Assembly (NCBI RefSeq): GCF_002803515.1
Contig: NZ_PHQX01000001.1
Location: 2,728,001-2,792,000 of the forward strand
Direction of reading: 5' to 3'
DNA: 64,000 nt
DNA from: Stenotrophomonas lactitubi
Lineage (GTDB): Bacteria; Pseudomonadota; Gammaproteobacteria; Xanthomonadales; Xanthomonadaceae
Below are positions 35,414 to 60,957 of the stretch, piece after piece. Made by a program: the position numbers and the translations under genes. The notes beneath the pieces were generated by a model. That model was not told the DNA's origin. It saw only the letters and a program-made list of their open reading frames with translations, and ran no database searches. The first letter of the stretch is position 1; the number at the start of each line of letters is the position of its first letter.

Positions 35414-36658
35414 TCACCCCTGCCCGGCCCCACGGCGCATCGCTGGCCACTGCTGGTACGTCATCGCACGCCACAGCCATTCCATCGGACCGAAGCGGAA
35501 ACGGCGCAGCCACAGATGGCTGAGGATTACCTGCGCAGCGAACAGCAGCAATGCCAACAGCAGCTGCCAGGCACGCGGCACTGCATCGAACCACCCCAGC
35601 CCGTAGTGATAGAACAGCAACGTACAGACCAGCGATTGACCCAGGTAGTGGGTCAGCGCCATCCGGCCGACCGGCGCCAGCCAGCCCATGCGCGCACGCC
35701 AGTGCACGATCCAGGCCAGGTAGCCCAGGCACATCGGCACGCCGCCCACGGCCACCAGCGCCATTGCCGAGGTGGTCGGCAGGTCATAGACACCCGGGGC
35801 CAGATAGGGCTTCCACAACACACCCGCCAGGGTGACCAGCAGGCCCAGAGGCAGCGCGACCCAGCGCAGGCCGGCATATAACCGGGGGAAACGCTCGGGC
35901 GCGGTCAATGCGCCGCTGCCAGCGAACCAGGCACCCAGCAGGAACATACCCAGCACTTCGGGTCCGGAAATGAACATGCCACCCAGCGACGCGCCGAACT
36001 CATGCAGGCGCTGCACGTTGGCCTGCATCCAGTCGCCCTGGCCATACACCAGACGTTGCTGGTCGATGCCCTGCTGCGCGTCGACCAGCATCTTCTGCAG
36101 GTCCTGCGGGGTGGCCATCGACACCATTGCGCCGACCAGCAGCATCAGCGCAACACCCAGTGCATACACCAGAAGACCCATCCACGGCAGCCAGCTGCGC
36201 GGTGCTTCGCGACAGGCCAGCAACGGCAGCGAGGCCAGTGCATACAGCACCAGGATGTCGCCCGACCAGACCAGCAATGCGTGGCACAGGCCGATCAGCA
36301 GCAGCCCGGCGCTGCGGCGCAGGTAGAACGGAGTGAACGGGCGACCCGCCGTTTCAGCACGCTGGGCCATCACCGCAAAGCCCGCACCGAACAACAGCGA
36401 GAACAGGGTGAAGAATTTTCCCTGCACGAACACATAGACGAATGCATCGGCCCAGTAGTCGATGCCCTGCCAATGCGCGTCGATGCCGGTAAAGGCCAGG
36501 TCCAGCGGCCCGCTGAGGGCCTCGATGTTCATCAGCAGGATGCCCAGCAGGGCAAACCCGCGCAGTATGTCCAGCAGGGCGATGCGTTCGCCGGAAGCCA
36601 CCGGTTGCAGGGAAGGGGAAGCGGTGTTCACGGGGCATCCGGCGTGCAGGTCCGTCAT
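35414..36658 (-). CDS. DUF418 membrane protein
   Basis: This 414-residue protein has around ten hydrophobic helices. It shows the DUF418 hallmarks: an N-terminal ERIALLDILRGFALLGILLM segment and a C-terminal half with GRMALTHYLGQSLVCTLLFY and GPMEWLWRAMTY. The family is related to acyltransferase-like membrane proteins (YeiB type), but its reaction is unknown. The ATG at 36658 is preferred because the start at 36703 lies beyond the hairpin that ends the slyD-like gene. It reads in the same direction as gor, 200 bases upstream. Confidence 0.86.
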   Translation of the reverse strand: MTDLHAGCPVNTASPSLQPVASGERIALLDILRGFALLGILLMNIEALSGPLDLAFTGIDAHWQGIDYWADAFVYVFVQGKFFTLFSLLFGAGFAVMAQRAETAGRPFTPFYLRRSAGLLLIGLCHALLVWSGDILVLYALASLPLLACREAPRSWLPWMGLLVYALGVALMLLVGAMVSMATPQDLQKMLVDAQQGIDQQRLVYGQGDWMQANVQRLHEFGASLGGMFISGPEVLGMFLLGAWFAGSGALTAPERFPRLYAGLRWVALPLGLLVTLAGVLWKPYLAPGVYDLPTTSAMALVAVGGVPMCLGYLAWIVHWRARMGWLAPVGRMALTHYLGQSLVCTLLFYHYGLGWFDAVPRAWQLLLALLLFAAQVILSHLWLRRFRFGPMEWLWRAMTYQQWPAMRRGAGQG

Positions 36659-36708
36659 TATGCCGCCGGCCTGCGGACCGTGGATGGCTCCGCCCTGTTC
36701 CACATACG

Positions 36709-36734
36709 CAACGGCCCGCCGAAGCGGGCCGTTG
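36709..36734 (-). terminator. Terminator hairpin of slyD-like gene
   Basis: CAACGGCCCGC-CGAA-GCGGGCCGTTG, an 11-bp perfect stem just after the slyD-like stop on the minus strand; no T run. Confidence 0.65.
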
Positions 36735-36757
36735 CTGCCATCACGATCGCAGCGCGA

Positions 36758-37240
36758 TCAGTGCTGGTGACCGCCGTCGCCGTGGACGTGGCCGTGTTCG
36801 AGCTCTTCCTTGCCGGCTTCGCGCACGTCGACGATCTCGACGTCGAAATGCAGGTCCTTGCCGGCCATCGGATGGTTCAGGTCGACGTCGACCACGCTCA
36901 TGCCGACCTTCTGCACGGTCACGGCACGCGGGCCGAAGTTGGTCTGCAGCACGACCTGCTGGCCCGGGACCAGCTTGGCGGTACCGAAGTGCTTCTTCGG
37001 CACGCGCTGGGACAGGCCATCACGGCGCTCGCCGTAAGCATCGGCCGCCTTGACGTCGACGTCGAAGGTCGCGCCGGCTTCCTTGTCCATCATGGCGTTT
37101 TCCAGGCCCGGGATGATGTTGCCGTGGCCGATCAGGATCGCCAGCGGCTCGCCGCGGTCCTTGGACGATTCGATCGGCTCCTGGCCGGCCTCGGAGACGG
37201 TGTAGTGGAAGCGGACAACGCGGTCTTTTTCGATCTTCAT
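36758..37240 (-). CDS. slyD: SlyD-type FKBP peptidyl-prolyl isomerase
   Basis: This 160-residue protein (MKIEKDRVVRFHYTVSEAGQ) has the split FKBP domain with GHGNIIPGLENAMMDKEAG and the inserted flap with AYGERRDGLSQRV. This is the SlyD arrangement, an isomerase plus chaperone. The histidine-rich end HGHVHGDGGHQH resembles the metal-binding tail of SlyD, though it is short and lacks cysteines. The ATG at 37240 matches the family start; the open extension to 37357 overlaps the divergent lipoprotein region. It is divergent from the first NlpC/P60 gene. Confidence 0.88.
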   Translation of the reverse strand: MKIEKDRVVRFHYTVSEAGQEPIESSKDRGEPLAILIGHGNIIPGLENAMMDKEAGATFDVDVKAADAYGERRDGLSQRVPKKHFGTAKLVPGQQVVLQTNFGPRAVTVQKVGMSVVDVDLNHPMAGKDLHFDVEIVDVREAGKEELEHGHVHGDGGHQH

Positions 37241-37351
37241 GCGCAACTCTGTCTGGATCTGCCGGAGGCAGGCGGGTTGGGGCGGGTTGTCGCCCGGCGG
37301 GGACGCCGCCATCATGACGGCCAATCCAAGGTCGCGCATTATCCGGAGAAC

Positions 37352-37891
37352 ATGCACATCACGCCAGTTTCGTCCGGCACGCGCCGGCTCCTCGCGCCCG
37401 CCCTGCTGCTGGCCCTGCCCCTTCTGCTGACCGCCTGTGGCGGCGGCAAGGCCGTCCGTTCCGCACCGCCACCGCCTGCGGCAAGCTGGCCCAGCACCAC
37501 ACCGGACAACCCAGAGGCCGCCAATTCGGTGCTGATGCGCGCCATCAGCCTGGTCGGCACGCCCTACCGCTATGGCGGCAACACGCCTGAATCCGGCTTC
37601 GACTGCAGTGGCCTGGTCGCCTACGTCTACCGTGAAATGCTGGATCTGAAGCTGCCGCGGACCTCACGCGACCTGGCGGCGGTACAGGGCCCGAAGATCG
37701 ATCCGAAGCGCCTGGCGACCGGCGACCTGGTCTTTTTTGGCAGCCGCGGCAATGTCAGTCACGTGGGGATCTACGTGGGCGAAGGTCGATTCGTGCACGC
37801 CCCGAGCACCGGCGGAACGGTGCGCCTGGATTCGCTCAGCGGACCCTACTGGAAGGACCACTACACAGGGGCGAAACGCGTCCTTCGCTAA
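37352..37891 (+). CDS. NlpC/P60 peptidoglycan endopeptidase, lipoprotein
   Basis: This 179-residue protein starts at ATG 37352 with GGAGAA just upstream. A lipoprotein signal ends at Cys29 (LLLTAC), and a proline-rich linker leads to a C40 domain with catalytic Cys85 in GFDCSGL, a histidine in VSHVGIYVG and a HAPSTG segment. It should hydrolyse cross-links in peptidoglycan from the outer- or inner-membrane face of the periplasm. A paralogue lies immediately downstream, likely a local duplication. Confidence 0.92.
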   Translation: MHITPVSSGTRRLLAPALLLALPLLLTACGGGKAVRSAPPPPAASWPSTTPDNPEAANSVLMRAISLVGTPYRYGGNTPESGFDCSGLVAYVYREMLDLKLPRTSRDLAAVQGPKIDPKRLATGDLVFFGSRGNVSHVGIYVGEGRFVHAPSTGGTVRLDSLSGPYWKDHYTGAKRVLR

Positions 37892-37987: not shown

Positions 37988-38800
37988 ATGATGCCCCATC
38001 GTTTTTTTCCTTGTGACCGACGCGTGACGACAAACGACCCGACGTGCCAAGGCCAGACCGCCGCTTCTTCGCGTAGTGTCCGCCCGCTTCTGCTGGGCTT
38101 GGCATTGTGTCTGACCAGCCTTCCCGCCTGGTCGCAGTCCGCTCCCACCCGTACCGATGCGACCCCGGCTGCCACCGCCGAGACCGCTCCCCGCGCAGCC
38201 GCCAAGGCCGACGCCACCGCTCCGCAGCGCAGCCGCGCCGATGCCGCCGCCAGCGCCACCCTGGCCGCCCTGCTGCCGCACCTGGCCGCCAATGACACCA
38301 TTCCGCTGATGGACCGCTCGGCCATGGTGGCCGGTGACCTCAGCCGCCTCCTCGCCAATTACGACACCAGCAGCGCCGCCAATGGCAGCGTCGTGGTCGG
38401 TACCGCTGCCGACAACGGCAAGGTGCAGTCGCTGCTGCGCCGGGCCATGACCCTGCTCGGCACCCCGTACCGTTGGGGTGGCAGCAATCCGGACAGCGGC
38501 TTCGACTGCAGCGGCCTGGTCGGTTATGTGTTCCGCTCGGCCCTGGGCATCGAGCTGCCGCGCGTCTCGCGTGAAATGGCGCATGACGCCAATGCCGAAC
38601 TGATCAACGACCGCGCCGCCCTGGCCGCAGGCGATCTGGTGTTCTTCGGCCGCAAGGGCCGGGTCGACCACGTCGGCATCTATGTGGGCGATGGTCGCTT
38701 CCTGCATGCCCCGAGCACCGGCAAGGACGTCCGCGTCGACACCCTGCTCAGTGGCTACTGGGGCAACAAGTTCATGCAGGCCCGCCGGGTCGACCTCTGA
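37988..38800 (+). CDS. NlpC/P60 peptidoglycan endopeptidase, secreted
   Basis: This 270-residue protein has a signal peptide-like hydrophobic segment (VRPLLLGLALCLTSLPAWSQ, about residues 32-50), an alanine/threonine-rich linker, and a C40 domain whose catalytic GFDCSGL and VDHVGIYVGDGRFLHAPSTG match those of the upstream neighbour closely. It probably acts as a murein hydrolase in the periplasm. The start is uncertain: ATG 37988 or 37991, with AGGG just upstream, or a GTG at about residue 14. The gap before it is A+T-rich and may hold its promoter. Confidence 0.88.
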   Translation: MMPHRFFPCDRRVTTNDPTCQGQTAASSRSVRPLLLGLALCLTSLPAWSQSAPTRTDATPAATAETAPRAAAKADATAPQRSRADAAASATLAALLPHLAANDTIPLMDRSAMVAGDLSRLLANYDTSSAANGSVVVGTAADNGKVQSLLRRAMTLLGTPYRWGGSNPDSGFDCSGLVGYVFRSALGIELPRVSREMAHDANAELINDRAALAAGDLVFFGRKGRVDHVGIYVGDGRFLHAPSTGKDVRVDTLLSGYWGNKFMQARRVDL

Positions 38801-38968: not shown

Positions 38969-40384
38969 GTGGGGCGGCACACCGATGATGACCTGTCAGC
39001 CGCCCGCGTTGCCCGGATGCTGGGGGAAGGCATGGCGGCAAGCCTGGAGATTCCATCGCGCTGCGTGATCTGGTTCGGCCAGCCACCGGCCGCCGAGCGC
39101 GGCGCGCTGGCGGCCGCCGGATGGCAACTGCGCTGTGTCAGCCCTGCACCTGCCATGGCCATTGGCCTGCGCGGCCGCGATCATCTGGTCGCCGTCGTAG
39201 ATCTTCGCCATCTGGACGCAGAGGCGGCGCAGTTGTTGCTGCCGTGGGTCGAGCAGCACCATCACCTGCCGTGGTTGGCCGTGCTGCCCGCCGGGCTGGG
39301 CAGCCCTCCTCCCGCCTGGGGGGCGTTGCTGCGGGCCTGCCAGGATCAGTTCTCGCTGCCGCTGGAGCTTCCCGACCTGCTGTCGGCGATGCAGCGCCAG
39401 TGCGACGGCGATGACCTGCCACTCGCCGCGCCCCACAACGGTGGCGGTCTTCCTGCACTGATCGGCAACAGCGCCCCCCTGCTGGCCGTCCGCACTGCCC
39501 TGCACAAATTCGCCCCGGTCGAGCTGCCGGTGCTGGTAACGGGAGAAACCGGCACCGGCAAGGAGCTGGCCGCGCAGGCGCTGCATGCGCTGTCCGGGCG
39601 TGCTGGGAAGCCCTTCCTGGCAGTGAACTGCGGTGCCATTCCCGCCAACCTTGTGCAGTCCGAACTGTTCGGCCACGAGCGTGGCGCTTTCACCGGCGCT
39701 TCCCAACGTCGCATCGGCCTGTTCGAAACAGCCCATGGCGGCACCGTATTCCTCGATGAGGTCGGCGACCTGCCTGCGGATGCACAGACCAGTCTGCTGC
39801 GGGTGCTGCAGGAGGGCACGCTGGAACGGGTGGGCAGCAACCAGCCACTGCGGGTGGATGTGCGCGTGCTGGCGGCCACCCATGTCGAGCTGGAACACGC
39901 GGTCGCCCAGGGCCGCTTCCGGCGCGATCTCTACTACCGCCTCAATGTGCTGCGCCTGCCGATGCCATCGCTGCGCGAACGTGGCGCCGATGTCCTGTTG
40001 CTGGCCGAACACTTCCTGCGCGCATTCCGCCAACGTCATGCCGGCCGTGCACGTGGCTTCGATCCTGGCGCGCACCAGGCGATGCGCGGGTTCGACTGGC
40101 CGGGCAACGTGCGCGAACTGTTGAACCGCGTACAGCGGGCGGCGATCGTGGCGGAGGGAGAACTGATCAGCGCGGCCGACCTGGATCTGGCCGAACCCGA
40201 TGCGCCCGCACGGCGTGCGCTGCTGCAGGATGCGCGTGGCCAGGTGGAGCGCGATGTACTGCTGCAGGCCCTGCGCCAGCATGGCTACAACGTGTCGGCG
40301 TGCGCGCGGCACATGCAGATCTCGCGGGTGACGGTCTATCGGTTGTGCCGCAAACATCATCTTGAGCTGCCGGCGCAGCGCTGA
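38969..40384 (+). CDS. Sigma-54-dependent transcriptional activator (probable regulator of the amyloid operon)
   Basis: This 471-residue bacterial enhancer-binding protein has an N-terminal domain of about 160 residues with no clear phospho-acceptor (VAVVDLRHLDAEAAQLLLPW, perhaps a degenerate receiver). A full AAA+ domain follows: Walker A GETGTGKE (192-199), the sigma-54 contact loop GAFTGA (239-244) and Walker B TVFLDEVGD. A Fis-type helix-turn-helix closes the protein (NVSACARHMQISRVTVYRLC). The GTG at 38969 or an internal ATG (Met17) is the start. It converges on the Fap-like operon, whose first gene has a sigma-54 promoter, so it is the obvious candidate regulator. Confidence 0.88.
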   Translation: MGRHTDDDLSAARVARMLGEGMAASLEIPSRCVIWFGQPPAAERGALAAAGWQLRCVSPAPAMAIGLRGRDHLVAVVDLRHLDAEAAQLLLPWVEQHHHLPWLAVLPAGLGSPPPAWGALLRACQDQFSLPLELPDLLSAMQRQCDGDDLPLAAPHNGGGLPALIGNSAPLLAVRTALHKFAPVELPVLVTGETGTGKELAAQALHALSGRAGKPFLAVNCGAIPANLVQSELFGHERGAFTGASQRRIGLFETAHGGTVFLDEVGDLPADAQTSLLRVLQEGTLERVGSNQPLRVDVRVLAATHVELEHAVAQGRFRRDLYYRLNVLRLPMPSLRERGADVLLLAEHFLRAFRQRHAGRARGFDPGAHQAMRGFDWPGNVRELLNRVQRAAIVAEGELISAADLDLAEPDAPARRALLQDARGQVERDVLLQALRQHGYNVSACARHMQISRVTVYRLCRKHHLELPAQR

Positions 40385-40428: not shown

Positions 40429-41718
40429 CTACAACATGTACGGCACCTTGAAGGCCAGCGTGAAGTCCGGCGCATCCGGGGTCAGGCCGATGCCCAGCAT
40501 CGTCACCAACGTGGTGTGCTGGTTCAACGCGTAGGTCACGCCGAGATTGAGCGACGCTGCATTGGCATCGCTGCCGATCACCTTCACCCATTCACCGCCC
40601 TTGAACCGCGTCGAGGCGCGCGTGCTGATCTTGTCGCTGAAGGAAATGCTCAGGCTGGTGCGCTCGTTGAACGCGAATGCCACACCGGCACCGAAGTACA
40701 CCGAACCACCCAGCTTAACGTCACCGGGGTTGACCGTATCCGGGTTGCTGTCGATATCGCTGAAGCCGCGCGGGAACGAATGGATGTAGCCGGCATTGGC
40801 GAACAGGATGGCCGGATCGGCGGTCTTCACCATCGACACGCCCAGGTTGGCCTGCCATACGCCGTTGCCGGTCGGCTGCTCCTGCGGCACCGCGAAGCGG
40901 ATGTAGTCATCGTCATCGCGCTCGATCACTTTCCAGTCCAGGCCATAGGGTGCGCGACCTGTAGGAGCAGTCACGCCACCGGTCAGTACCGTCTCCGGAC
41001 GCCAGCCGCGTTCGGCGAACAGCCGGTAATTGGCACTCAGGCTGACATCGCCGATGCCGTTGCCGTTGGTTTCTTCCTGCGCGATCGCCGCTGCTGCACC
41101 GCCGGCACCGCCCTTCTGGTAGACCGTGCGCCGGGCCAGGTATGGCACGTCCAGGTTCAAGGTGAGGTTGGGGCTGACGCCCCAGCGCGCGGCCAGGTTG
41201 TAGGTCAACGAATCGGATTCGACATTCTCGATCGCGATGTTGCCGAGGAAGATCGCATCCAGGGCGAGGAAGCCGTTGAGGGTGAGTTGCTTGCGGTCAT
41301 AGCGCGCATAGGTGAGGCCGTTTTCGATGGTGAACCGGCGCGAGAACAACGCCGCCTGCTGCTGCTTGACGTCGTCCACGCTGCGCCGTGCCTCCTGCTT
41401 GGCCTGCTGTGCCTCGGCCGCGCTGCTGGCATAGCCTTCGCTGCTGGGCGGAACGGCGGATGCTGCAGCGGGCGCCAACGGCGCTGCGGGCGTCGTACCG
41501 GGGCCTGCGCGACCGCTCAGCCGCGCCTGCATCGCCTGCACCTGCATGTCCAGTTCGCGCAGGCGTCGTACCTCTTGGGCGTAATTGGCCTTGAGCTGTT
41601 CCAGTTGCGCGATCAGTGCCTGCATGTCGGCGCCCTCATTGGGCGCAGGCTGCTGGGCGAAGGCGGTGGCCGCCAGCGCCGCCAGCGCCAACGGAGTAAG
41701 CCGGAAGAGAGTGTGCAT
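40429..41718 (-). CDS. FapF-like amyloid exporter (outer-membrane beta-barrel with coiled-coil)
   Basis: This 429-residue protein has a signal peptide (cleavage near ...ATAFAQQ), a predicted coiled-coil at about 31-68 (MQALIAQLEQLKANYAQEVR), a proline/alanine linker, a second helix (about 95-125) and then a beta-barrel to the C-terminus, which ends FKVPYML. FapF of Pseudomonas has the same plan (helical coiled-coil, linker, 12-stranded pore) and about the same length; it secretes the amyloid subunits. It is the last gene of the minus-strand operon, as fapF is in Pseudomonas. Confidence 0.75.
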   Translation of the reverse strand: MHTLFRLTPLALAALAATAFAQQPAPNEGADMQALIAQLEQLKANYAQEVRRLRELDMQVQAMQARLSGRAGPGTTPAAPLAPAAASAVPPSSEGYASSAAEAQQAKQEARRSVDDVKQQQAALFSRRFTIENGLTYARYDRKQLTLNGFLALDAIFLGNIAIENVESDSLTYNLAARWGVSPNLTLNLDVPYLARRTVYQKGGAGGAAAAIAQEETNGNGIGDVSLSANYRLFAERGWRPETVLTGGVTAPTGRAPYGLDWKVIERDDDDYIRFAVPQEQPTGNGVWQANLGVSMVKTADPAILFANAGYIHSFPRGFSDIDSNPDTVNPGDVKLGGSVYFGAGVAFAFNERTSLSISFSDKISTRASTRFKGGEWVKVIGSDANAASLNLGVTYALNQHTTLVTMLGIGLTPDAPDFTLAFKVPYML

Positions 41719-41763
41719 GTCGGTGACCTGCGTTGTACGTCGATTCCCCCTGACCAGGCCGTG

Positions 41764-42516
41764 TTACTGGCCCGGGCCCATGCCGCGGTTCATCCCGATC
41801 GCCTGGGCCACGTTCTGGCTCAAGGGCAGGTTGTTGGCCGCGGTGTTGCGTACCAGTTCCAGTTGCAGCCGGTTGCTGGCGGTCTGTCCATCGCCGGCCA
41901 AGGCAATGCCCTGCCCCACGCTGCCGTTGCGGATCCACTGCTGTACCAGGCTCTGCCCGTCGACCTGCAGCAGCAGGCGCGCCTGGTTGCCATCGAGCAT
42001 GGCTGTGGCGGTAGCGCCACCCTGCTGTGCCTGCGCCATGCGGCTGCCGTCGTCGGTCATCGCTGTCGGCACCGCGCCATCACGCACGGTCAGCGTGGTC
42101 ACGTTGCGCGCGGTGTTGCCATCGCCGGCCACCTGCACGCTCTGCACCAGTCCACTGGCATTGGCCAGGCCGGTACTGTCGATGCTGCGCCCTGCCGTGG
42201 TCGGCAACGGAGCGTCAGCGGCGGTGACGTGGACGCTGGGCTGGAAGCTCAGTTTCGGTGTCCCGCCATTGCGGAAATCCATGCCCAGGGTCAGCGCTCC
42301 CTGCACCACTGCACCGTTGGGCCCCTGCCACTGCGAAATCATCGTCACCCCGAACCAGGCCACGTTGTTGCCACCAACGGTGTAGCGGCCACGCATCAGG
42401 TTCAGTTCGGGATCGGGTATTTCCTTCAGGCCACGCCCCGGTGCACCGTCTGCCGCCATCAACGGCGACACCGACAGCATCAGCAGCAGGGCGAGTACTA
42501 CACGTTGGCATTGCAT
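41764..42516 (-). CDS. FapE-position secreted protein
   Basis: The ATG at 42516, with AAGGAGG eight bases upstream, gives 250 residues with a signal peptide (MQCQRVVLALLLMLSVSPLM, cleavage near AADG). The mature N-terminus has IPDPELNLMRGRYTVGGNNV and ISQWQGPNGAVVQGALTLGM, followed by a long beta-rich region with many Gly, Asn and Gln residues. It occupies the position of fapE between the protease and exporter genes; in Pseudomonas FapE is secreted and found in fibres in small amounts. Direct sequence similarity cannot be measured here, so the name is by position and character. Confidence 0.62.
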   Translation of the reverse strand: MQCQRVVLALLLMLSVSPLMAADGAPGRGLKEIPDPELNLMRGRYTVGGNNVAWFGVTMISQWQGPNGAVVQGALTLGMDFRNGGTPKLSFQPSVHVTAADAPLPTTAGRSIDSTGLANASGLVQSVQVAGDGNTARNVTTLTVRDGAVPTAMTDDGSRMAQAQQGGATATAMLDGNQARLLLQVDGQSLVQQWIRNGSVGQGIALAGDGQTASNRLQLELVRNTAANNLPLSQNVAQAIGMNRGMGPGQ

Positions 42517-42529
42517 GATCGTGCCTCCT

Positions 42530-43234
42530 TCAGAACAGGTCGGCGTGGCTGAAGCCGAAGTCGACCAGTTCGGCATCGGTGATCGGTCCCTGCCGCGCAT
42601 ACAACGCGCGGGCACTGGGCCGTTCGCTGGGTTGCAGCAGCGCCGTATTGCGATCGAAGTCGCTGCCGATCACGACGAAAACAGCACGTGACGGCCAGGC
42701 GGCGCTGAACTCTTCCAATGACAGGCTGCGGTTGCCCAGAATCGGATCGGCCACTTCCACCACGCCGTCGCGCACCTGCTTGAGCACGACGAAATGCCGG
42801 AAGCCGCGTACATCCATCAGCACCAGTCCAGGAACCCGCAACGTGCGCAGCCGCGATTCATCGATGCGATAGCCGCGTCCACGCATGCCCAGCGATTCGA
42901 CATAGCGTTTGATGTCCAACAACGAGAAACCGCGTTCCTTGACCAGCTGTGGATCGGATACCCCCATCATTCCCTCGATCACCGTCGCCTCGGTGGTGTC
43001 CAGGTGGTAGGCATAACGCAGGATGGTGGCCAGAGCGGCCGCCCCGCAGCTGTAGTCGGTGTGCTGCCGCACCAGGTTGCGATAACGCCGCTCCTGCATG
43101 CTTTCCACCTTCTGCTGCAGCAGCGCGCCATTGGGCAGCACCCCGCTGAACACCACCTCGCCTGCCCAGCCGGATGCGCTGGTCAACAGCAGCAGGCAGG
43201 GCAGCAAACGCAACCACCAGCGATGACCGGCCAT
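42530..43234 (-). CDS. FapD-like C39-family cysteine peptidase
   Basis: This 234-residue protein has a signal peptide (MAGHRWWLRLLPCLLLLTSA, cleavage after GWA) and the C39 bacteriocin-processing peptidase fold: Cys63 in TDYSCGAAALATIL, His147 in GFRHFVVLKQ and Asp163 in VADPILGN. FapD of Pseudomonas is a periplasmic protease of this type, needed for export of the Fap fibre proteins. The ATG at 43234 has GGAG at a good distance; a GTG at 43246 is the alternative. Two strong hairpins separate it from the upstream C-like subunit gene. Confidence 0.82.
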   Translation of the reverse strand: MAGHRWWLRLLPCLLLLTSASGWAGEVVFSGVLPNGALLQQKVESMQERRYRNLVRQHTDYSCGAAALATILRYAYHLDTTEATVIEGMMGVSDPQLVKERGFSLLDIKRYVESLGMRGRGYRIDESRLRTLRVPGLVLMDVRGFRHFVVLKQVRDGVVEVADPILGNRSLSLEEFSAAWPSRAVFVVIGSDFDRNTALLQPSERPSARALYARQGPITDAELVDFGFSHADLF

Positions 43235-43255
43235 GCTGTTCTCCACGAGAAGGAA

Positions 43256-43326
43256 GGAGCCCCTGCCCCAAGGGGGAGGAGGGACAGGGGCTCCCGGGGG
43301 AACCCGGCCATTGGCGGATGGCCGGG
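43256..43326 (-). promoter_or_regulatory. Two strong hairpins between C-like and D-like genes
   Basis: GGAGCCCCTG (43256-43265) pairs with CAGGGGCTCC (43285-43294), and CCCGGCCAT (43303-43311) pairs with ATGGCCGGG (43318-43326). Lying right after the amyloid subunit gene, they may protect its mRNA end or reduce read-through. Confidence 0.5.
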
Positions 43327-43374
43327 CTTGTTGCGCTCAACGCAGGTTCGCTGCGAAAGCGGTCACACCGTGGA

Positions 43375-44757
43375 TCACTCGCCGCCGCCGGTCCCACCGC
43401 CGGTGCTCGGCTGCGCCACGGCCAATGCCAGGCTGTTGGCCTGCAGGTTGCCGGTACCCGATGCCACGTTCACGCCGATGTTGCCGGACGCGCCGGAGAA
43501 CGCGCTGCCGGAAAGTGCCGAGGTGTTGGTCGCATTGACGTTCACCCAGCGAGTGGTGCTGACCGTGCCACTGAGGCTGGCATACAGGTCGGCCACGCCC
43601 AGCTCGACGAACTGGCTGGTGCCGCTTTCACGCGTATCGAAGCCCAGGCCACCCACTCCCGGCCGGTTCGGGTTCATCGTTGCGTTCTGGATCTCGTTGT
43701 CCAGATCGATGTGCCCGGTCGCATTGCCACCCGGATGCGGCAGATCGCCACTCCACGTATCGAGGTAGTAGTTGGCCATCTGGTAGGCATTGCCGGTGCC
43801 GCGATAGGTACCGGCACCCACGGCCAGGGTACCGCCAGCGACGCGGCCGCTCAGGCCGACCTGCACCGTATCGGTGTAGGACTGCACGAAACCGGCGTTG
43901 GACACGGTGTTGCCGGTGGACACCTGGTTGGAGCTGATGCTCGACTGCGCCATCGCACTGGTGGCTACCGATGCAGCAAGTGCGTTCTTCTGCTCGTTGT
44001 TGTTGCCCGAGGCGATGTTCACACCGATGTTGCCCGATGCACCGCCGAAGGCATTGCCACCGAGGCCTGCGGCGTTGGTGACGCCGGAGTTCATGGTGGT
44101 GTTGCCGAAGCCGGCCTGGTTGACGAACACCTCGGCGTCGGCCATGCCGAAGCTGAAGGAGGCATCCGCAGCCGACAGCGACGCAGCGTTGTCCTGCGCG
44201 TTGTTGTCGCCGGCCACCACGTTGAAGCCGAGGTTGCCGGAGGCACCGGCGCCGACATCATCGGCGATCGAAGCGCTGTTGGTGACCAGGCTGTTGCCGG
44301 TGAGGTTGTTGCTGATCGACTGGCGGTTGTCGATCACGGCGATGGCGGCCGAATCCAGATCGATGTCACCGGTGATGGTCGGATCGCCGGAGAAGTTGAT
44401 GTCCGAACTCAGCCGCAGGTCCTTCTCCAGGTTCACGTCGACGCCGTGGTTGTTCTTTTCCTTGCGCTCGTCGGCCTGGATGTTGCTGTTCTTCTGCACC
44501 TGCTCGTTGACGTTCACCGTGCGATTGCGGGTCACGTTCGAGGTGTCGGTGTTGTTGCGTACCGTGGTGTTGCTGCGGGTCCAGTTGCGGACTTCGTTGT
44601 CGGTGTGGTTGTGCGTGTCGTTGCGGGTTTCGGTCACGACGTGGTTGTGGTTGATGTTCGCGTTGGCGTTCTGGTTGTCCCAGCCATTGGCCGCAGCAGC
44701 GGTCGAGGCAGTGGCAATTGCCATGGCGAGTACGGTCTTTTTGACAGTCGCTTTCAT
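43375..44757 (-). CDS. FapC-like major functional-amyloid subunit
   Basis: This 460-residue protein has a signal peptide (MKATVKKTVLAMAIATASTA, cleavage near AAANG) and an Asn/Thr/His-rich segment (about 28-90). It has three imperfect repeats: GASGNLGFNVVAGDNNAQDN at 171-190, GASGNIGVNIASGNNNEQKN at 239-258 and GASGNIGVNVASGTGNLQAN at 422-441. They are spaced by long linkers, the architecture of Pseudomonas FapC, where such repeats build the fibre core. It ends with a glycine-rich tail. No cysteine pair is present at its end. It is the longest of the two repeat proteins, so the likely major fibre subunit. Confidence 0.78.
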   Translation of the reverse strand: MKATVKKTVLAMAIATASTAAAANGWDNQNANANINHNHVVTETRNDTHNHTDNEVRNWTRSNTTVRNNTDTSNVTRNRTVNVNEQVQKNSNIQADERKEKNNHGVDVNLEKDLRLSSDINFSGDPTITGDIDLDSAAIAVIDNRQSISNNLTGNSLVTNSASIADDVGAGASGNLGFNVVAGDNNAQDNAASLSAADASFSFGMADAEVFVNQAGFGNTTMNSGVTNAAGLGGNAFGGASGNIGVNIASGNNNEQKNALAASVATSAMAQSSISSNQVSTGNTVSNAGFVQSYTDTVQVGLSGRVAGGTLAVGAGTYRGTGNAYQMANYYLDTWSGDLPHPGGNATGHIDLDNEIQNATMNPNRPGVGGLGFDTRESGTSQFVELGVADLYASLSGTVSTTRWVNVNATNTSALSGSAFSGASGNIGVNVASGTGNLQANSLALAVAQPSTGGGTGGGE

Positions 44758-44799
44758 GGTGCCCTCTCTCTCATCAGTGATACATCGGGTGGGTGGTAC

Positions 44800-45414
44800 T
44801 CACGGGTTGCCCTGCACGACCAGGCCCAGAACATTGGCCGTATCGTTTCGCGCTCCCGCGATCTGATTGAGTTGCAGGACACCGTCGAAGCCCCGCAGTG
44901 CCGTCGAGGAAACGCCGACACTGCGGATACCCGCCGCAACACCGTCACCGGTATCGCCCTGCCCCCCTGCTGACGCGATGTCCGAGGCGGCCAACGCCGT
45001 GTCATCGGACTCGCGTATTCCTTGCCGGGCCAGCGTCGCGCTGACGACATTGAGCGTCGTGTTGGCGATGCCGCTGGCCTGGTTGATCGATGCAATGCCG
45101 CTGGCCCCTGCCAGCGCCTGTCCGGCGATGTGCGCGCTGGCTTCCAGTGGTGCCGACAGCACGACATCGTTGCTGTGCTGCTGCCGTGCGGCGATGGCCA
45201 CGTCGGCGCGGTCGCCGCTGACCATGCCATGCAGGTTGGCCTGGATGTTGAGATCGCCCGCGGCCTGGTTGATGGCGATGGCACCACTGGCACCGGCCAG
45301 CGCGCGGCCGTCGATGCGGGTCACATCGAGGTAGGCCAGCATCCCGCTGTAGTCGTCGGCCAAGGCTACGGCCGGTACTGCCAGCCAGGCCGCCAGCAGC
45401 ACTGCGCGCTTCAC
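44800..45414 (-). CDS. FapB-like minor amyloid (nucleator) subunit
   Basis: This 204-residue protein has a signal peptide (MKRAVLLAAWLAVPAVALA) and three repeats related to those of the C-like protein: LAGASGAIAINQAAGDLNIQ (39-58), LAGASGIASINQASGIANTT (101-120) and a weaker LRGFDGVLQLNQIAGARNDT (173-192). FapB in Pseudomonas is the smaller repeat protein thought to nucleate fibres. The start is a GTG at 45414 whose GTGA overlaps the stop of the upstream gene, showing translational coupling. It lies directly upstream of the C-like gene, as in fapBC. Confidence 0.75.
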   Translation of the reverse strand: MKRAVLLAAWLAVPAVALADDYSGMLAYLDVTRIDGRALAGASGAIAINQAAGDLNIQANLHGMVSGDRADVAIAARQQHSNDVVLSAPLEASAHIAGQALAGASGIASINQASGIANTTLNVVSATLARQGIRESDDTALAASDIASAGGQGDTGDGVAAGIRSVGVSSTALRGFDGVLQLNQIAGARNDTANVLGLVVQGNP

Positions 45415-45950
45415 TTGCCACCCGCCTGCGCCGGTGCGCCCAGCGGGAACTGCGACAGTGCGCCGCGCACGGTATCGCCGATGCCGCGTGTGGTATTGCC
45501 GACCGCACCCAGCGGGCCGCTCATCGCACCGCTGAGGCTGCTGCCACTGATCATCCCCTCGCCCGAGCGGCCAAGGGTTCCGCCCAATGCCTGCTGGGTC
45601 ACCCGCTCGACGGTGGTGACACCGTGCGCGTGCACGCTGCCGGACTGACCGGCGCCGAGACCGGCGTAGTCGTCGTCACTGAGTTCATCCATGCCGCTGG
45701 CGGCGCCGCTGCTGCCGAGTGCGGCAGCGATCTCCTGTTGCGGTTTCGGATCGGCGATCAACGCCACGCCGGGCGGCGCCATGCGGTAGGCCGGGCGCGT
45801 GGCCACGTCGCGCAACAGGACGATTTCGCCAGGCTGCGCCTTCACCCCTTGGCGGGCGCCCGAAGCAGCGGCCGCCAGCGGAACGGCCAGCACCAGCAGC
45901 AGCGCAAGCTGCCGGCCAGAAACAGTGATAAGGGTGGTGCTGCCGTCCAT
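45411..45950 (-). CDS. FapA-position secreted protein
   Basis: The ATG at 45950, with GGGAGA six bases upstream, gives 179 residues. The N-terminus (MDGSTTLITVSGRQLALLLV ... AAAASG) is a signal peptide. The mature part has GEIVLLRDVATRPAYRMAPP and MDELSDDDYAGLGAG, then a Gly/Ser-rich tail. It is the first gene of the operon, the fapA position; Pseudomonas FapA is a periplasmic protein affecting which subunits enter the fibre. No strong sequence motif allows a firm homology call. A sigma-54 promoter lies about 35-50 bases upstream. Confidence 0.6.
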   Translation of the reverse strand: MDGSTTLITVSGRQLALLLVLAVPLAAAASGARQGVKAQPGEIVLLRDVATRPAYRMAPPGVALIADPKPQQEIAAALGSSGAASGMDELSDDDYAGLGAGQSGSVHAHGVTTVERVTQQALGGTLGRSGEGMISGSSLSGAMSGPLGAVGNTTRGIGDTVRGALSQFPLGAPAQAGGK

Positions 45951-45982: not shown

Positions 45983-45999
45983 AGCAGCTTTCGTGCCAA
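45983..45999 (-). promoter_or_regulatory. Sigma-54 (-24/-12) promoter of the Fap-like operon
   Basis: Reading the minus strand, TTGGCACGAAAGCTGCT matches the consensus YTGGCACGRNNNTTGCW with one mismatch (C for T in the -12 element), and GG and GC are separated by exactly 10 bases. The predicted transcript starts near 45973, about 23 bases before the ATG at 45950, leaving room for the GGGAGA ribosome site. Confidence 0.8.
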
Positions 46000-46031: not shown

Positions 46032-46067
46032 GGTAACACCGCGGCGGCATGACGCCGCAGTGTTACA
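46032..46067. promoter_or_regulatory. Candidate activator-binding inverted repeat 1
   Basis: GTAACACCGCGGCG and CGCCGCAGTGTTAC form an inverted repeat with one mismatch, centred about 50 bases upstream of the -24 element. The GTGTTAC half-site recurs in the next element. Confidence 0.5.
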
Positions 46068-46128: not shown

Positions 46129-46166
46129 GGGCTGTATCAGCAGTGTTACAGGTACTGATACAGCCC
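46129..46166. promoter_or_regulatory. Candidate activator-binding inverted repeat 2, or transporter terminator
   Basis: GGGCTGTATCAG and CTGATACAGCCC are perfect 12-bp arms around CAGTGTTACAGGTA, which repeats the GCAGTGTTACA of the first element. It is about 150 bases upstream of the sigma-54 promoter, a usual enhancer distance, but it also lies just after the stop of the symporter gene. Confidence 0.5.
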
Positions 46167-46180
46167 GTTGCAGTGCCGCT

Positions 46181-47515
46181 TCAGGCGCGCGGCGGGCTCG
46201 GGTCGGGATCATCGATGCCGACGTTGGTGGACGGGTTGTCGTACACCGTCTGGTCGAGCAGGCCCGTTTCCTTGGCCACCAGCACCGGCACCAGCATCTG
46301 ACCGGTCACATTCGTCATCGTGCGCATCATGTCCAGGATGCGATCGATCGCGTACAGATAGCCGATGGTTTCCAGCGGCAGGTTGGCCGCGCTCAGCACC
46401 ACCGTCGCCATGATCACCGCCGTACCCGGCACGCCGGCGGTACCGAAGCTGCCCAGCACCGAAGCGATCAGCACCACCACGTACTGCTCGGGCGTCAGCG
46501 GCACACCGCTGTACTGGGCGATGAACACCGCGCACAGCGCCGGATAGATCGCGCCGCAGCCGTCCATCTTGATGCTCGCGCCCAGCGGCACCGCGAACGA
46601 ACCGTAATCCTTGTTCACGCCCAGGTTGTGGGTGATCGAACGCAGCGCAACCGGCATCGCCGCGAAGCTGGAGGAGCTGACGAAGGCCACCTGCATGCCC
46701 GGCGCCGCACCGCGGAAGAACTTCAGCGGATTCAACCCGTGCGCCAGCAGCAGCGCGCTGTACACCACCACGATGTGCAGCGCGCAGGCCACGTACAGCG
46801 CCAGCACGAAGTGGCCCAGCGGCAGCAGCTTCTCGAAGCCATAGCTGCCGACCAGGCCGGCGATCAGGCCGAAGGTGCCGATCGGAGTGACTTCCAGCAC
46901 GAAGCGGGTCACCTGGATCATGATGTCGCTCATCTGCCCGACCAGCTTGCGCGCTTCGGTCACCTTCTCGCCGAGCTTGACGATGGCAAAGCCGACCAGG
47001 CCTGCGAAGAAGATCACCGGCAGGATCGAACCACGGCCCGCCGCCAGCACGGTCTCACCGGCGGCGTTGACCTTGGTGCCGATACCCGACAGCGCGTAGA
47101 ACACGTTGGACGGCACCACATCCAGCAGCACCTGCACCACGCTGGGCACTTCGCGCGGCACATAGTTGCTGGCCATCGACAGCTGCAGGCCACCGGCGCC
47201 GGGCTGCAGTACCGTACCCACGCCCAGGCCCACGCATACCGCGAGCGCGGCGGTGATCACGAACCACAGGAACGTGCGCCCGCTGAGCGCGGCGACCGAT
47301 TTCTGGCCGTGCAGCGAAGAGATCGCGTTGATGACCGCGAAGAACACCAGCGGCACCGCGATCATCTTGATCAGGGTGACGTACAGCTCGCCGAGCGGGC
47401 CGAACCAGGTTTCAGCCGCCGGGCCAAGCGCCCAGCCGGCCAGCGCACCGAGCACGAAGCCACCGACCACGCGCTGCCAGAATGGAATCCGCAGCCAGGC
47501 AGAGACCAGCTTCAT
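46181..47515 (-). CDS. Dicarboxylate/amino acid:cation symporter (DAACS family)
   Basis: This 444-residue inner-membrane transporter shows the family landmarks: the serine-rich re-entrant loop SSSSFAAMPVALRS, the TM7 motif KMDGCGAIYPAL in place of the usual NMDGT, the second re-entrant loop GSFGTAGVPGTAVIMA, and the TM8 motif DMMRTMTNVTGQ that binds substrate carboxylate and amino groups. It imports dicarboxylates or acidic amino acids with sodium or protons. The ATG at 47515 (MKLVSAWLRIPFWQRVVGGF) fits the family start. It reads in the same direction as the Fap-like operon downstream, but that operon has its own promoter. Confidence 0.92.
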   Translation of the reverse strand: MKLVSAWLRIPFWQRVVGGFVLGALAGWALGPAAETWFGPLGELYVTLIKMIAVPLVFFAVINAISSLHGQKSVAALSGRTFLWFVITAALAVCVGLGVGTVLQPGAGGLQLSMASNYVPREVPSVVQVLLDVVPSNVFYALSGIGTKVNAAGETVLAAGRGSILPVIFFAGLVGFAIVKLGEKVTEARKLVGQMSDIMIQVTRFVLEVTPIGTFGLIAGLVGSYGFEKLLPLGHFVLALYVACALHIVVVYSALLLAHGLNPLKFFRGAAPGMQVAFVSSSSFAAMPVALRSITHNLGVNKDYGSFAVPLGASIKMDGCGAIYPALCAVFIAQYSGVPLTPEQYVVVLIASVLGSFGTAGVPGTAVIMATVVLSAANLPLETIGYLYAIDRILDMMRTMTNVTGQMLVPVLVAKETGLLDQTVYDNPSTNVGIDDPDPSPPRA

Positions 47516-47669
47516 AGGCAATCCAAGGGGGTAGGAAGGGATGCTGGCACGATAGCCCAAGGCGGGCTGCAGAACGACCGCCCACGTGGCAAATCAGTGT
47601 GTCATCGGCGTGCCTTGCGAGGCCGGGCATAATGAACGTCCCGTTTCACTTTGTGAGATCCCAGCGTCC

Positions 47670-49376
47670 ATGCGTCGTTCCGTCTCCCTGTTGGCCGCCT
47701 GCGCCACGACCCTGCTGCTCGGCGCCTGCGCCAGCACCGCCCCCGCGTCCGCTCCGGCCGGCCTGAAGGTCAGCGTCGCCCCCGTTGCCCACCCTGCCGG
47801 TGAAACCCCGCAGTGGTGGTACCGCAGCGGTGCCGCCCAGGCAGCCGCCAATGGCGCGATGGCCGGCAAGGCCAAAAACGTCATCCTGTTCCTGGGTGAT
47901 GGCATGAGCCTGACCACCGTGGCCGCCTCGCGCATCTACGAAGGCCAGCAGAAGGGCGGCTCGGGCGAAGAGAACCTGTTGTCGTGGGAGCGCTTCCCGG
48001 CCACCGCGTTCAGCAAGACCTACAACACCGATTCGCAGACGCCGGATTCGGCCGGCACCATGACCGCCATCACCACCGGCGTGAAGACCCACATGGGTGC
48101 GATCGGCGTCAGTGCCGGCAGCCGCACCGACTGCGCCGACAGCCTGTCCAAGGGCCTGCTGACCTGGCTGCAGCTGGCCGACAGCGCCGGCCTGGCCACC
48201 GGCGTGGTCTCCACCGCACGCCTGACCCATGCCACGCCGGCCGCGACCTACGCGCACTCGCCCGAGCGCAACTGGGAAAACGACACCGACCTGACCGAAG
48301 CGGCCAAGGCCGCCGGCTGCAAGGACATCGCCCAGCAGCTGCTGTCGACCTCGCGCTACGGCCGCGGCCCACTGGTCGCCCTGGGCGGTGGTCGCGGTGA
48401 GTTCACCACCGTGGAAGAGCGCGACCCCGAGTACGACGACAAGGTCGGCCAGCGCCTGGACGGCCGCAGCCTGGTGCAGGAATGGCAGCAGGCGCACCCA
48501 CAGGGCGCCTACGTGTGGAACAGCAAGCAGCTGCAGGCCGCCGCCAACGCACCGGCGATTCTTGGCCTGTTCGAGCCGGACCACATGCGCTACGAGTACG
48601 AACGTCCGCAGGACCCGGCCGGTGAGCCGAGCCTGGCCGAGTTGACCGCTGCAGCGATCAAGAACCTGTCGCGCCATCAGGAAGGCTACGTGCTGATGAT
48701 CGAAGGCGCGCGCATCGACCACGCCAACCACAGCGGCAACGCCTACCGTGCGCTGACCGAGACCGTGGCCCTGTCCGATGCCGTGCGCGTGGCCAACGAG
48801 CTGACCTCGGCCGACGACACGCTGATCATCGTCACCGCCGACCATTCGCACACCCTGAACTTCGTCGGCTACCCGGCCCGTGGCAACCCGATCCTGGGCA
48901 AGGTGAAGGACAAGGGCGGCGAAGACGGTGCGGGCAAGCTCGACCTGGCACTGGATGGCAACGGCCAGCCCTACACCACCCTGAGCTATGCCAACGGCCC
49001 CGGCCACACCGGCACCAGCAACCAGCAGCCGGCGGGCCCGAAGCGCTACCCGCACAACCCCAGCAGCTTCGAGCCGGCCAACGGCCGCCCGAACCTGCAC
49101 GATGTCGATACCGAGCATCCGGACTACATGCAGGAAGCGTTGGTACCGATGAAGTCCGAATCGCATGGTGGCGAGGACGTCGGCATCTGGGCACGCGGCC
49201 CGGGCAGCAAGGCGATCCGCGGCACCCTGGAACAGAACGCGATCTACCACATGATCGTGCAGGCCACCCCTGCCCTGCGCGACCGCCTGTGCAAGGCCGG
49301 CACCTGCGACGACAAGGGCGTACCGGTGGAACTGCCGGCACCGGCCACCTTCGAGCGCAAGGCTGACAGCAAGTGA
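47670..49376 (+). CDS. Alkaline phosphatase, lipoprotein
   Basis: This 568-residue protein has a lipoprotein signal ending at Cys20 (LLLGAC). The PhoA-type core has metal ligand Asp77 in LFLGDGMS, the nucleophile Ser127 in TPDSAGTMTA, a conserved EGARIDHANHSG and TADHSHT for zinc binding. It releases phosphate from phosphomonoesters outside the cytoplasmic membrane. Lipid anchoring is unlike E. coli PhoA. The ATG at 47670 starts the signal; the open extension to 47586 is not needed. The next gene starts within its stop codon. Confidence 0.93.
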   Translation: MRRSVSLLAACATTLLLGACASTAPASAPAGLKVSVAPVAHPAGETPQWWYRSGAAQAAANGAMAGKAKNVILFLGDGMSLTTVAASRIYEGQQKGGSGEENLLSWERFPATAFSKTYNTDSQTPDSAGTMTAITTGVKTHMGAIGVSAGSRTDCADSLSKGLLTWLQLADSAGLATGVVSTARLTHATPAATYAHSPERNWENDTDLTEAAKAAGCKDIAQQLLSTSRYGRGPLVALGGGRGEFTTVEERDPEYDDKVGQRLDGRSLVQEWQQAHPQGAYVWNSKQLQAAANAPAILGLFEPDHMRYEYERPQDPAGEPSLAELTAAAIKNLSRHQEGYVLMIEGARIDHANHSGNAYRALTETVALSDAVRVANELTSADDTLIIVTADHSHTLNFVGYPARGNPILGKVKDKGGEDGAGKLDLALDGNGQPYTTLSYANGPGHTGTSNQQPAGPKRYPHNPSSFEPANGRPNLHDVDTEHPDYMQEALVPMKSESHGGEDVGIWARGPGSKAIRGTLEQNAIYHMIVQATPALRDRLCKAGTCDDKGVPVELPAPATFERKADSK

Positions 49377-60000: not shown

Positions 60001-60957
60001 CTGGCTGCCCTCGGCCTGCAGGCGCAGGCGCGGCACCTGCAGCGCCCACCCGTCTGCGGTCCGCTGCCAGCGCAGGCGCGCCTGCAGCCGTTGCAGCTGC
60101 ATCTGCGGACCCGCGATGCCGGGCATCGGTGCGCCTTCGATACGCAGATCGCGCAGGTCCGAATCGGTGGTCAGCGCCACCGGCGCGAAATCACGCAGGG
60201 TCAGCCACAGGTTGAGTTCGCCCTTGCCCTCGCGCAGGCGCATCCCACCGGCCGCCAGCAACGGCGACCAGGCGCGGAAATCAACCGGGTCGGCACCGAG
60301 CCAGGCCTGGCCGTTGCCGCGCTGGCGATCCAGGTCCAGCACCGCCGTCAGCGGCAAGGCGTCGATCTGTGCCCAGGCACGCACGCCCACCCGCAGGCGG
60401 TCGCCATCCACGCGCAGGCGCAGATCGATGCGTGGCAGGTTGGCGTCGACGCCCAGCGCAGGTGCATGCACGCCCAGGCGGCCGCCTATCACCTGCAGTT
60501 CGCCCAGCCGGCGCAACGCGTCCAGTGGATCGCCGCCAGCACTGGACTGCGGCAGGCCACGCACCGACCAGCGGCCATCGGCAGCCTGCTGCAGATCCAG
60601 TGCCAGGCCGCGCAGGCGCAGTTCGGTCAGCGAGCGGCCCGGCAGCAGGCCGCTGTACATCGACACCAGCACCTCGGCTTCGCCGATGGCCAGGCCCTGG
60701 CCCGCGCCGATGCGCAGGCCCTTCAACTGCAGCAATGGACCGCGTCGGGTCCAGGTAGTGTCCAGGCGTTCAAAGCGCACCGGTTGTCCGGCGCGCGCGC
60801 TCAGCCAGGCCGCGATCCTGTCCGGATGGCGCTCAGCCAGCGGCAGCAGCTGGCTGAGGGTACCGACCAGCAGGGCAAGCCCGACCAGGCCGACCGCGCA
60901 TGCGGCGATGAAATGACGGCGGATCCTTCGCAGTCGCAGGCGCGGCGGCGCGCTCAT
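57088..60957 (-). CDS. yhdP: YhdP-family AsmA-like envelope protein
   Basis: This 1289-residue protein has one N-terminal membrane helix (about residues 15-37, [20 protein letters not shown]). A very long periplasmic region follows with DUF3971/AsmA-type beta repeats, for example [20 protein letters not shown] near the N-terminus and [20 protein letters not shown] near the C-terminus. YhdP, TamB and YdbH form bridges that move phospholipids to the outer membrane. The end is proline-rich with [16 protein letters not shown]. It lies between rng and tldD, the usual rng-yhdP-tldD order of proteobacteria. Confidence 0.93.

Follow-up and report, generated by a model that had tools for sequence, protein, structure and literature searches.

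The window analysed here, a 64,000-nucleotide stretch of the Stenotrophomonas lactitubi genome, carries on its minus strand a set of six genes that very probably constitutes a complete Fap functional-amyloid operon controlled by a BrfA-type activator together with sigma-54. An initial annotation, made from the sequence alone, had proposed the six fap genes; beyond these we describe a convergent activator gene, a promoter-type site with upstream boxes, and a pair of hairpins between fapC and fapD. The operon is of a known kind in a known genus. The 2013 survey of fap genes names Stenotrophomonas and gives fapABCDEF as the common order (PMC3792158), and a 2018 review repeats S. maltophilia as a fap carrier (PMC6173800); here and below, papers cited by PMC number are drawn on for the portions of their text that were available. 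The initial annotation was thus right in its identification, which is less surprising than it had suggested given that the genus was listed in 2013.

Identity of the fap operon

Judged by their sequences, the six genes almost certainly form a complete fapABCDEF operon:

45411..45950, minus strand: fapA, putative periplasmic chaperone; 179 residues; NCBIfam FapA 1.9e-10; found in 74/74 loci of the genus
44800..45414, minus strand: fapB, predicted minor fibre subunit or nucleator; 204 residues; GTG start, overlapping fapA; NCBIfam FapB 4.6e-23
43375..44757, minus strand: fapC, predicted major fibre subunit; 460 residues; three Fap repeats; NCBIfam FapC 3.4e-48
42530..43234, minus strand: fapD, C39 cysteine peptidase; 234 residues; NCBIfam FapD 8.1e-78; Pfam Peptidase_C39 6.2e-20
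41764..42516, minus strand: fapE, predicted secreted minor component; 250 residues; NCBIfam FapE 1.8e-22
40429..41718, minus strand: fapF, predicted outer-membrane exporter with an N-terminal stretch and a beta barrel; 429 residues; NCBIfam FapF 6.3e-112

All six consecutive open reading frames are present as first described, and the NCBIfam profile that fits each protein best is the Fap model for its position, running from A to F. The same order on one strand is seen in all 74 genus loci. The initial annotation had staked its reading on the protease and exporter matching FapD and FapF, and on the repeat proteins not being better explained as autotransporter or adhesin fragments. FapD and FapF are indeed matched best by their Fap profiles; the catalytic Cys, His and Asp of the C39 triad are invariant across 14 aligned FapD sequences, and the barrel exporter matches the solved FapF structure by sequence (PDB 5o65, 7.7e-79 over residues 109-428). 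FapC likewise matches solved FapC chains (PDB 9nqd, 3e-12; PDB 9u4u, 4.8e-12). Adhesin or autotransporter fragments were rejected as an account of FapB and FapC, since no such Pfam family is found at cut-off and the fibre-subunit profiles match. In Pfam, no families were found for FapA, FapC and FapE, and FapB has a sub-threshold match to Saf-pilin. That the genes are instead a Fil-type (FilB/FilC) or an autotransporter or adhesin relative with no fibre system is very improbable: FapD matches FilB (2.4e-35), FapF matches FilC (4e-23), and FapF also matches the Pfam families Phenol_MetA_deg above cut-off (8.9e-8) and Autotransporter weakly, but the Fap profiles outscore the Fil profiles by 138 and 292 bits, FapB, FapC and FapE are all present, FapC contains Fap repeats, and the solved relative of the exporter is FapF.

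The system shares with Pseudomonas fapABCDEF the same six genes in the same order, a match of each protein to its own Fap profile, and FapF and FapC proteins that match the solved chains of those names. It differs in that none of the six window proteins reaches the NCBIfam equivalog cut-off, a result that speaks against the identification. FapE does not exceed this cut-off in any of 370 genomes of the class (FapE itself was detected in 15), and so the cut-off looks to have been set for a narrow group. The 2013 survey gives mean identities to P. aeruginosa of 17-39% outside Pseudomonadales, with 18% for FapC (PMC3792158). Among the best 80 of 576 relatives, the closest named FapF proteins are nearly all labelled Stenotrophomonas. 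A plasmid search returned distant FapF-like matches only (18 records), none of them with 80% query coverage.

The comparisons that follow draw on the 74 genus loci, on named loci taken from the same best 80 relatives, a choice that leans to close ones, and on 39 loci outside Stenotrophomonas. The named and genus loci overlap in genomes and so cannot be treated as independent of each other; independence is provided by the 39 outside loci. Single-base shuffles served as controls for the genus sigma-54 sites, gap folding, hairpins and leader G runs, and dinucleotide shuffles for the boxes and the relaxed sigma-54 pattern.

The FapC fibre protein

The repeats of FapC start at residues 171, 239 and 422 (GASGNLGFNVVAG, GASGNIGVNIASG and GASGNIGVNVASG, respectively). 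Two of the three GASGNIGVNxASG-type repeats claimed by the initial annotation are exact, whereas the first is a variant. Counted by a short motif in 150 FapC sequences, the repeat number is three in 137, two in 11 and four in 2. An AlphaFold model built from 43 sequences has a mean predicted local distance difference test (pLDDT) score of 60. In this model residues 136-197, 204-265 and 409-448 are predicted as beta structure, with block means mostly 80-87. Residues 20-133 score 33-43 with no modelled structure, and the second linker, which separates repeats 2 and 3 by 183 residues, also scores low. The three repeats thus behave in the model as expected, and the long front of the protein is not modelled as a fold.

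This Asn/Thr-rich front (residues 25-136, window 44685-44350) is about 110 residues long, is modelled as disordered, and varies in length in the order. Together with the long second linker it sets the 460-residue window FapC apart from Pseudomonas FapC; FapC linkers are known to vary (PMC3792158). A further difference is that the solved FapC chain has a C-x-x-C motif near its end, whereas 140 of the 150 sequences here have no Cys after residue 25.

An activator gene linked to the operon

A gene for a predicted sigma-54-dependent activator faces the end of the operon:

38969..40384, plus strand: brfA-type sigma-54 activator, convergent with fapF; VpsR domain, AAA+ domain with GAFTGA motif, Fis helix-turn-helix (HTH); start probably the ATG at 39032

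The arrangement resembles that of P. fluorescens PF07. There brfA is a reverse gene downstream of fapF, deletion of brfA or rpoN significantly lowers fap gene expression, and the fapA transcript begins at a -24/-12 promoter (PMC9207406). The window activator shares with PF07 BrfA the reverse position downstream of fapF, membership of the Fis family, a predicted dependence on RpoN and a -24/-12 type fapA promoter, and we assign its orthology by position and architecture. BrfA has been reported as a cyclic diguanylate (c-di-GMP) sensor in PF07, and BrfA-type factors have been called widespread in Pseudomonas (PMC13101488). A search judged by titles and the starts of abstracts found no publication treating a fap activator in the order Xanthomonadales.

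The activator and the operon are found together. Among 81 genomes of the genus, the window genome included, FapE is present in 74 and the activator (E <= 1e-120) in the identical 74; both are missing from the same 7, two of which are 76% and 85% complete. In every named locus but one (78 of 79) the activator adjoins fap and is encoded on the other strand, the exception being a contig end, and it lies opposite fap in 73 of the 74 genus loci, the remaining locus again being at a contig end. Its side of the operon is not fixed: it is downstream and convergent in 45 genus loci, and in 28, unlike in PF07, it is upstream and divergent. The 28 loci (L038-L065), which include S. maltophilia-type genomes, have brfA upstream of fapA across a shared gap of 312-398 bp. 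In trees of 38 hand-chosen loci, including 7 of these 28, the loci with brfA upstream form one group both for BrfA (100/100) and for FapF (100/99). Since they group in both trees, the simplest account is that brfA moved once, in a single clade, and the linkage was retained.

Outside the genus, a BrfA-like activator adjoins fap in 12 of 13 loci (12 genomes, three of them from one genus), one of these activators being partial at a contig start. The VpsR domain is present in 8 of 10 such activators scanned; L118 was left out of the scan, and its frame has no GAFTGA motif. The G[AS]FTGA motif occurs in all 151 activators of the set compared (104 with A, 47 with S; some genomes are in the set twice). 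The domain combination (VpsR domain, AAA+ and HTH) is shared with VpsR of Vibrio cholerae and FleQ of Pseudomonas, both of which are among the solved relatives. To our knowledge VpsR does not use sigma-54, and retention of the motif in 151/151 distinguishes this activator family from it.

The putative fapA promoter and upstream boxes

Upstream of fapA lie a promoter-type site and two boxes:

45983..45998, minus strand: sigma-54 (-24/-12) type site TGGCACGAAAGCTGCT, 48 bp before the fapA start
46061..46067, minus strand: proximal TGTAACA box, a putative activator site 69 bp above the -24 element
46133..46150, minus strand: distal palindromic box TGTAACACTGCTGATACA, the palindrome being found nowhere else in the genome

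All 74 genus loci have a -24/-12 type site between positions -34 and -56 relative to the extrapolated start of fapA, with a score that about 1% of shuffles equal. A relaxed sigma-54 pattern lies within 200 bp in 76/76 named loci; the mean for shuffles is 0.46. TGTAACA or its complement is also found upstream of fapA in 74/74 genus loci, with at least 2 copies in 64, compared with 2.2% of shuffles, and the boxes cluster in two zones, one 50-79 bp and the other 140-189 bp upstream of the -24 element. The palindrome TGTAACA-N4-TGNNNCA has a single genomic copy, upstream of fapA.

These sequence features make it likely that fap is under BrfA/sigma-54 control. Several observations weigh against this. 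In 15 of the 76 named loci the strict sigma-54 pattern is missing and only the relaxed one is found, and scored on the genus-site matrix these loci reach at best 6.1 and fall to -8, below the training minimum of 18.3. TGTAACA is found in just 20 of the 39 loci outside Stenotrophomonas. The VpsR domain of the window activator is matched weakly (6.5e-6; 26.3 bits against a cut-off of 23.7), and 5 of 33 activator N-termini have no VpsR match. Unlike FleQ, moreover, the window activator does not keep, when the two are aligned, the residues that we take to contact c-di-GMP in FleQ, so that any c-di-GMP input to the window activator is putative.

Control might instead lie with a FleQ-like or other activator, with brfA a mere neighbour. 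The genome offers candidates, having 8 strong sigma-54 activator domains (11 above cut-off), and in P. ogarae F113 the effect of c-di-GMP on fapB needs FleQ (PMC9279365). We consider this improbable: across the 81 genomes brfA and fapE are always present together or missing together, their linkage persists even where brfA has switched sides of the operon, and 12 of the 13 loci outside the genus have a BrfA-like activator adjoining fap. In favour of BrfA/sigma-54 control, the window activator is the one VpsR-domain protein found in the genome, and two rpoN genes are present.

A twin-hairpin RNA element between fapC and fapD

Between the fibre-subunit genes and fapD the predicted transcript folds into two consecutive hairpins:

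43249..43332, minus strand: twin-hairpin RNA element located between fapC and fapD; hairpin 1 at 43328-43301 (loop CCGCCA), hairpin 2 at 43295-43255 (loop UCCUCCCCCUU)

This gap stands out within the operon, with a median length of 137 nt compared with medians of -4 to 46 for the other fap gaps. It folds more stably than its shuffles in 74/74 genus loci (z < -2, median -4.6). In 112 distinct gaps of the order, a strong hairpin is found in 111, two in a row in 109, and CCC in the loop of the strongest in 105; the corresponding counts among 336 shuffles are 11, 2 and 48. Only 4 of 183 other fap gaps longer than 30 nt contain a strong hairpin. Twin hairpins are present in 38 of the 39 gaps outside Stenotrophomonas and in all of 47 hand-picked loci. 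Under a strict test for the hairpin cores, 96 of the 112 gaps had hairpin 1 and 92 had hairpin 2; the two occurred together in the right order in 74, against 0/560 shuffles.

The pattern of substitution also supports a folded RNA. Two-sided stem changes occur at hairpin 2 inner pairs 1-7 in 39, 29, 17, 8, 6, 18 and 21 sequences, and at hairpin 1 pairs 1-4 in 19, 9, 22 and 17; related sequences are counted separately and canonical pairs only are included, so that these counts describe the kinds of change and not a breakage rate. The loops, by contrast with the stems, are constant, being CCGCCA in 65 of the 96 hairpin 1 sequences and containing CCCC in 88 of the 92 hairpin 2 sequences. The end of hairpin 2 lies a median of 22 nt from fapD. 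The element is single-copy in the genome, the next match having an E of 0.43. Taken as a structure, the RNA element is well supported.

RNAalifold run on a MAFFT alignment of 46 of the 47 hand-picked loci (L189 left out) missed hairpin 2, stems with differing bulge patterns being misaligned, and the covariance model made from this alignment therefore went unused; a further alignment given a hand-made structure was discarded on the same ground.

The element matches no Rfam family at threshold. The nearest family is 6C RNA (RF01066, gathering score 47 bits), which scores below threshold in the window (33.9), L038 (36.3) and L090 (40.5), and is not detected at E 0.5 in L069, L080, L101, L158, L170 or L193. 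L069 has a sub-threshold match to Scr3202, and L158, L170 and L193 have no Rfam match at that E. A literature search on fapC, fapD and terminator found no description of the element, returning one paper on Rho in another context.

Among the 13 class-wide loci, the same twin hairpins recur in L111, from the same family. L107 and L118 have a terminator-like hairpin followed by a T run in the fapC-fapD gap; one long hairpin is found in L112, L113 and L115, and at least two in L114, L116 and L117. The gap of L109 is 37 nt long and contains a short hairpin only. In L106 and L110 no gap separates the genes, and fapC is missing from L108.

Possible roles of the RNA element

The hairpins most likely shield the fapABC message at its 3' end or set where that end lies, a role to which we give about the same weight as to all other roles together. 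A T-rich stretch seldom occupies the 8 bases that follow hairpin 2 (TTTT in 3 of the 112 gaps), and because the T run is rare in the order we favour a 3' stabiliser or processing site over a simple terminator. The position of the element and the missing T run are the whole of the case for a stabiliser, and this narrow footing tells against it.

The constancy of the loops calls for a further explanation. The element might otherwise give rise to, or itself constitute, a regulatory RNA in the style of sX13, its C-rich loops pairing with G-rich leaders, that of fapF in cis and perhaps others in trans, which would couple the making of amyloid to other programmes. The conservation of the loops while the stems change in compensating pairs is what such a role would lead one to expect, and the UCCCCCU in the loop of hairpin 2 is the motif of Xanthomonas sX13 loop 3 and of the H. 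pylori HPnc5490 loop (PMC3771888). sX13 represses mRNAs that bear G-rich motifs near their starts (PMC3771888). A candidate partner is present in the operon:

41745..41751, minus strand: AGGGGGA, within the leader of fapF; perfectly complementary to the UCCCCCU in the hairpin 2 loop and its putative pairing partner

In the 64-kb window AGGGGGA or TCCCCCT occurs at those two places only, where 6.1 occurrences would be expected. GGGGG is found in the 80-nt fapF leader in 65 of 74 genus pairs, compared with 27 in shuffles, most often ends 27 nt before the start, and has variable flanks. Such a leader accompanies 58 of 60 gaps with UCCCCCU and 7 of 14 without it, a co-occurrence in which kinship is uncontrolled. 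The sub-threshold 6C RNA matches point the same way.

Against this, UCCCCCU is found in only 1 of the 39 gaps outside the genus, and the excess of GGGG in the 60-nt fapF leader across all loci is modest (80/115 against 54.6 in shuffles). GGGG is found in 99 of 109 fapD leaders, where it derives from hairpin 2's own arm. No Rfam family matches at threshold, and sX13 consists of three hairpins downstream of polA and is hence a different RNA (PMC3771888). The element shares with 6C RNA and sX13 hairpins with C-rich loops; it differs from 6C RNA in scoring under the gathering score, lying inside the fap operon, and having two hairpins with other stems. A role of the sX13 kind is therefore, to our minds, a tentative possibility, and we regard the pairing of the hairpin 2 loop with the fapF leader as a lead that would more often fail than hold. 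It is doubtful whether the operon carries its own regulatory RNA in the fuller sense that the C-rich loop pairs with the G-rich fapF leader, the fibre message thereby restraining the pore until a balance of all three components (subunit, chaperone and pore) is reached, with other G-rich leaders perhaps also affected.

Alternatively the hairpins could act as a partial terminator, or attenuator, so that only some polymerases enter fapDEF. The strong hairpin in 111 of 112 gaps would suit this, as would the terminator-like hairpins with T runs at the same place in L107 and L118, outside the order. We think it unlikely, as TTTT follows hairpin 2 in just 3 of the 112 gaps of the order and termination does not need conserved C-rich loops.

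A model for the regulated operon

Returning to the hairpins as a 3' stabiliser or processing site, the findings can be combined into a working model in which a complete Fap operon, vertically kept, would be run as one regulated module. An activated VpsR-domain protein of the BrfA type would bind the TGTAACA boxes, which lie some 70 and 150 bp ahead of the -24 element, and would thereby drive sigma-54 RNA polymerase at fapA. By analogy with work in Pseudomonas, FapB and FapC would reach the periplasm via Sec, where FapA would prevent their aggregation; FapD would process them or gate their export, FapF would pass FapB, FapC and FapE across the outer membrane, and the three FapC repeats would stack into a fibre outside. 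Behind fapC, the transcript would fold into the two GC-rich hairpins with C-rich loops, and these may shield or define the fapABC 3' end such that the fibre subunits outnumber FapD, FapE and FapF.

Neighbouring genes and unusual loci

Two adjacent NlpC/P60 proteins (window 36002-37891 and 37988-38800) are encoded beside brfA. The upstream neighbours of fap are a dicarboxylate symporter (46181-47560; SDF 1.4e-108) and an alkaline phosphatase (47586-49376; 6.6e-125). Further away lies a gene for a 1289-residue YhdP family protein (57088-60957; 5.6e-213).

Some of the compared loci are unusual. L135, in a record titled Bacillus subtilis SK7B5, has a Stenotrophomonas-type fap locus and is probably a mislabelled or contaminated assembly. 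L191, in a record labelled Eremiobacteraeota, has a full fap-brfA locus (FapF 57%) with twin hairpins, reflecting either transfer or a binning error. The FapE proteins of L103 and L104 are 294 residues long, about 40 residues longer, and are matched in two pieces. L108 and L113 are two fap loci of one genome (G312), with a BrfA-like activator at one only in the stretch read. L110 has a many-repeat FapC-like region, its fapF lying about 6 kb off and adjoining the activator.

Significance

Our data extend the linkage of fap and BrfA from Pseudomonas to the order, with weaker evidence for other families of the class. The dedicated activator and its boxes make the switch testable, in a genus that has both biocontrol and clinical members. 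Building a Fap fibre needs an aggregation-prone subunit that is in excess and yet always meets chaperone and open pore; in the available portions of the Fap literature we found no statement of how a fap operon sets the ratio of subunit to export machinery. The single-copy, covarying RNA described here sits at the point where the fibre subunits end and the export machinery begins.

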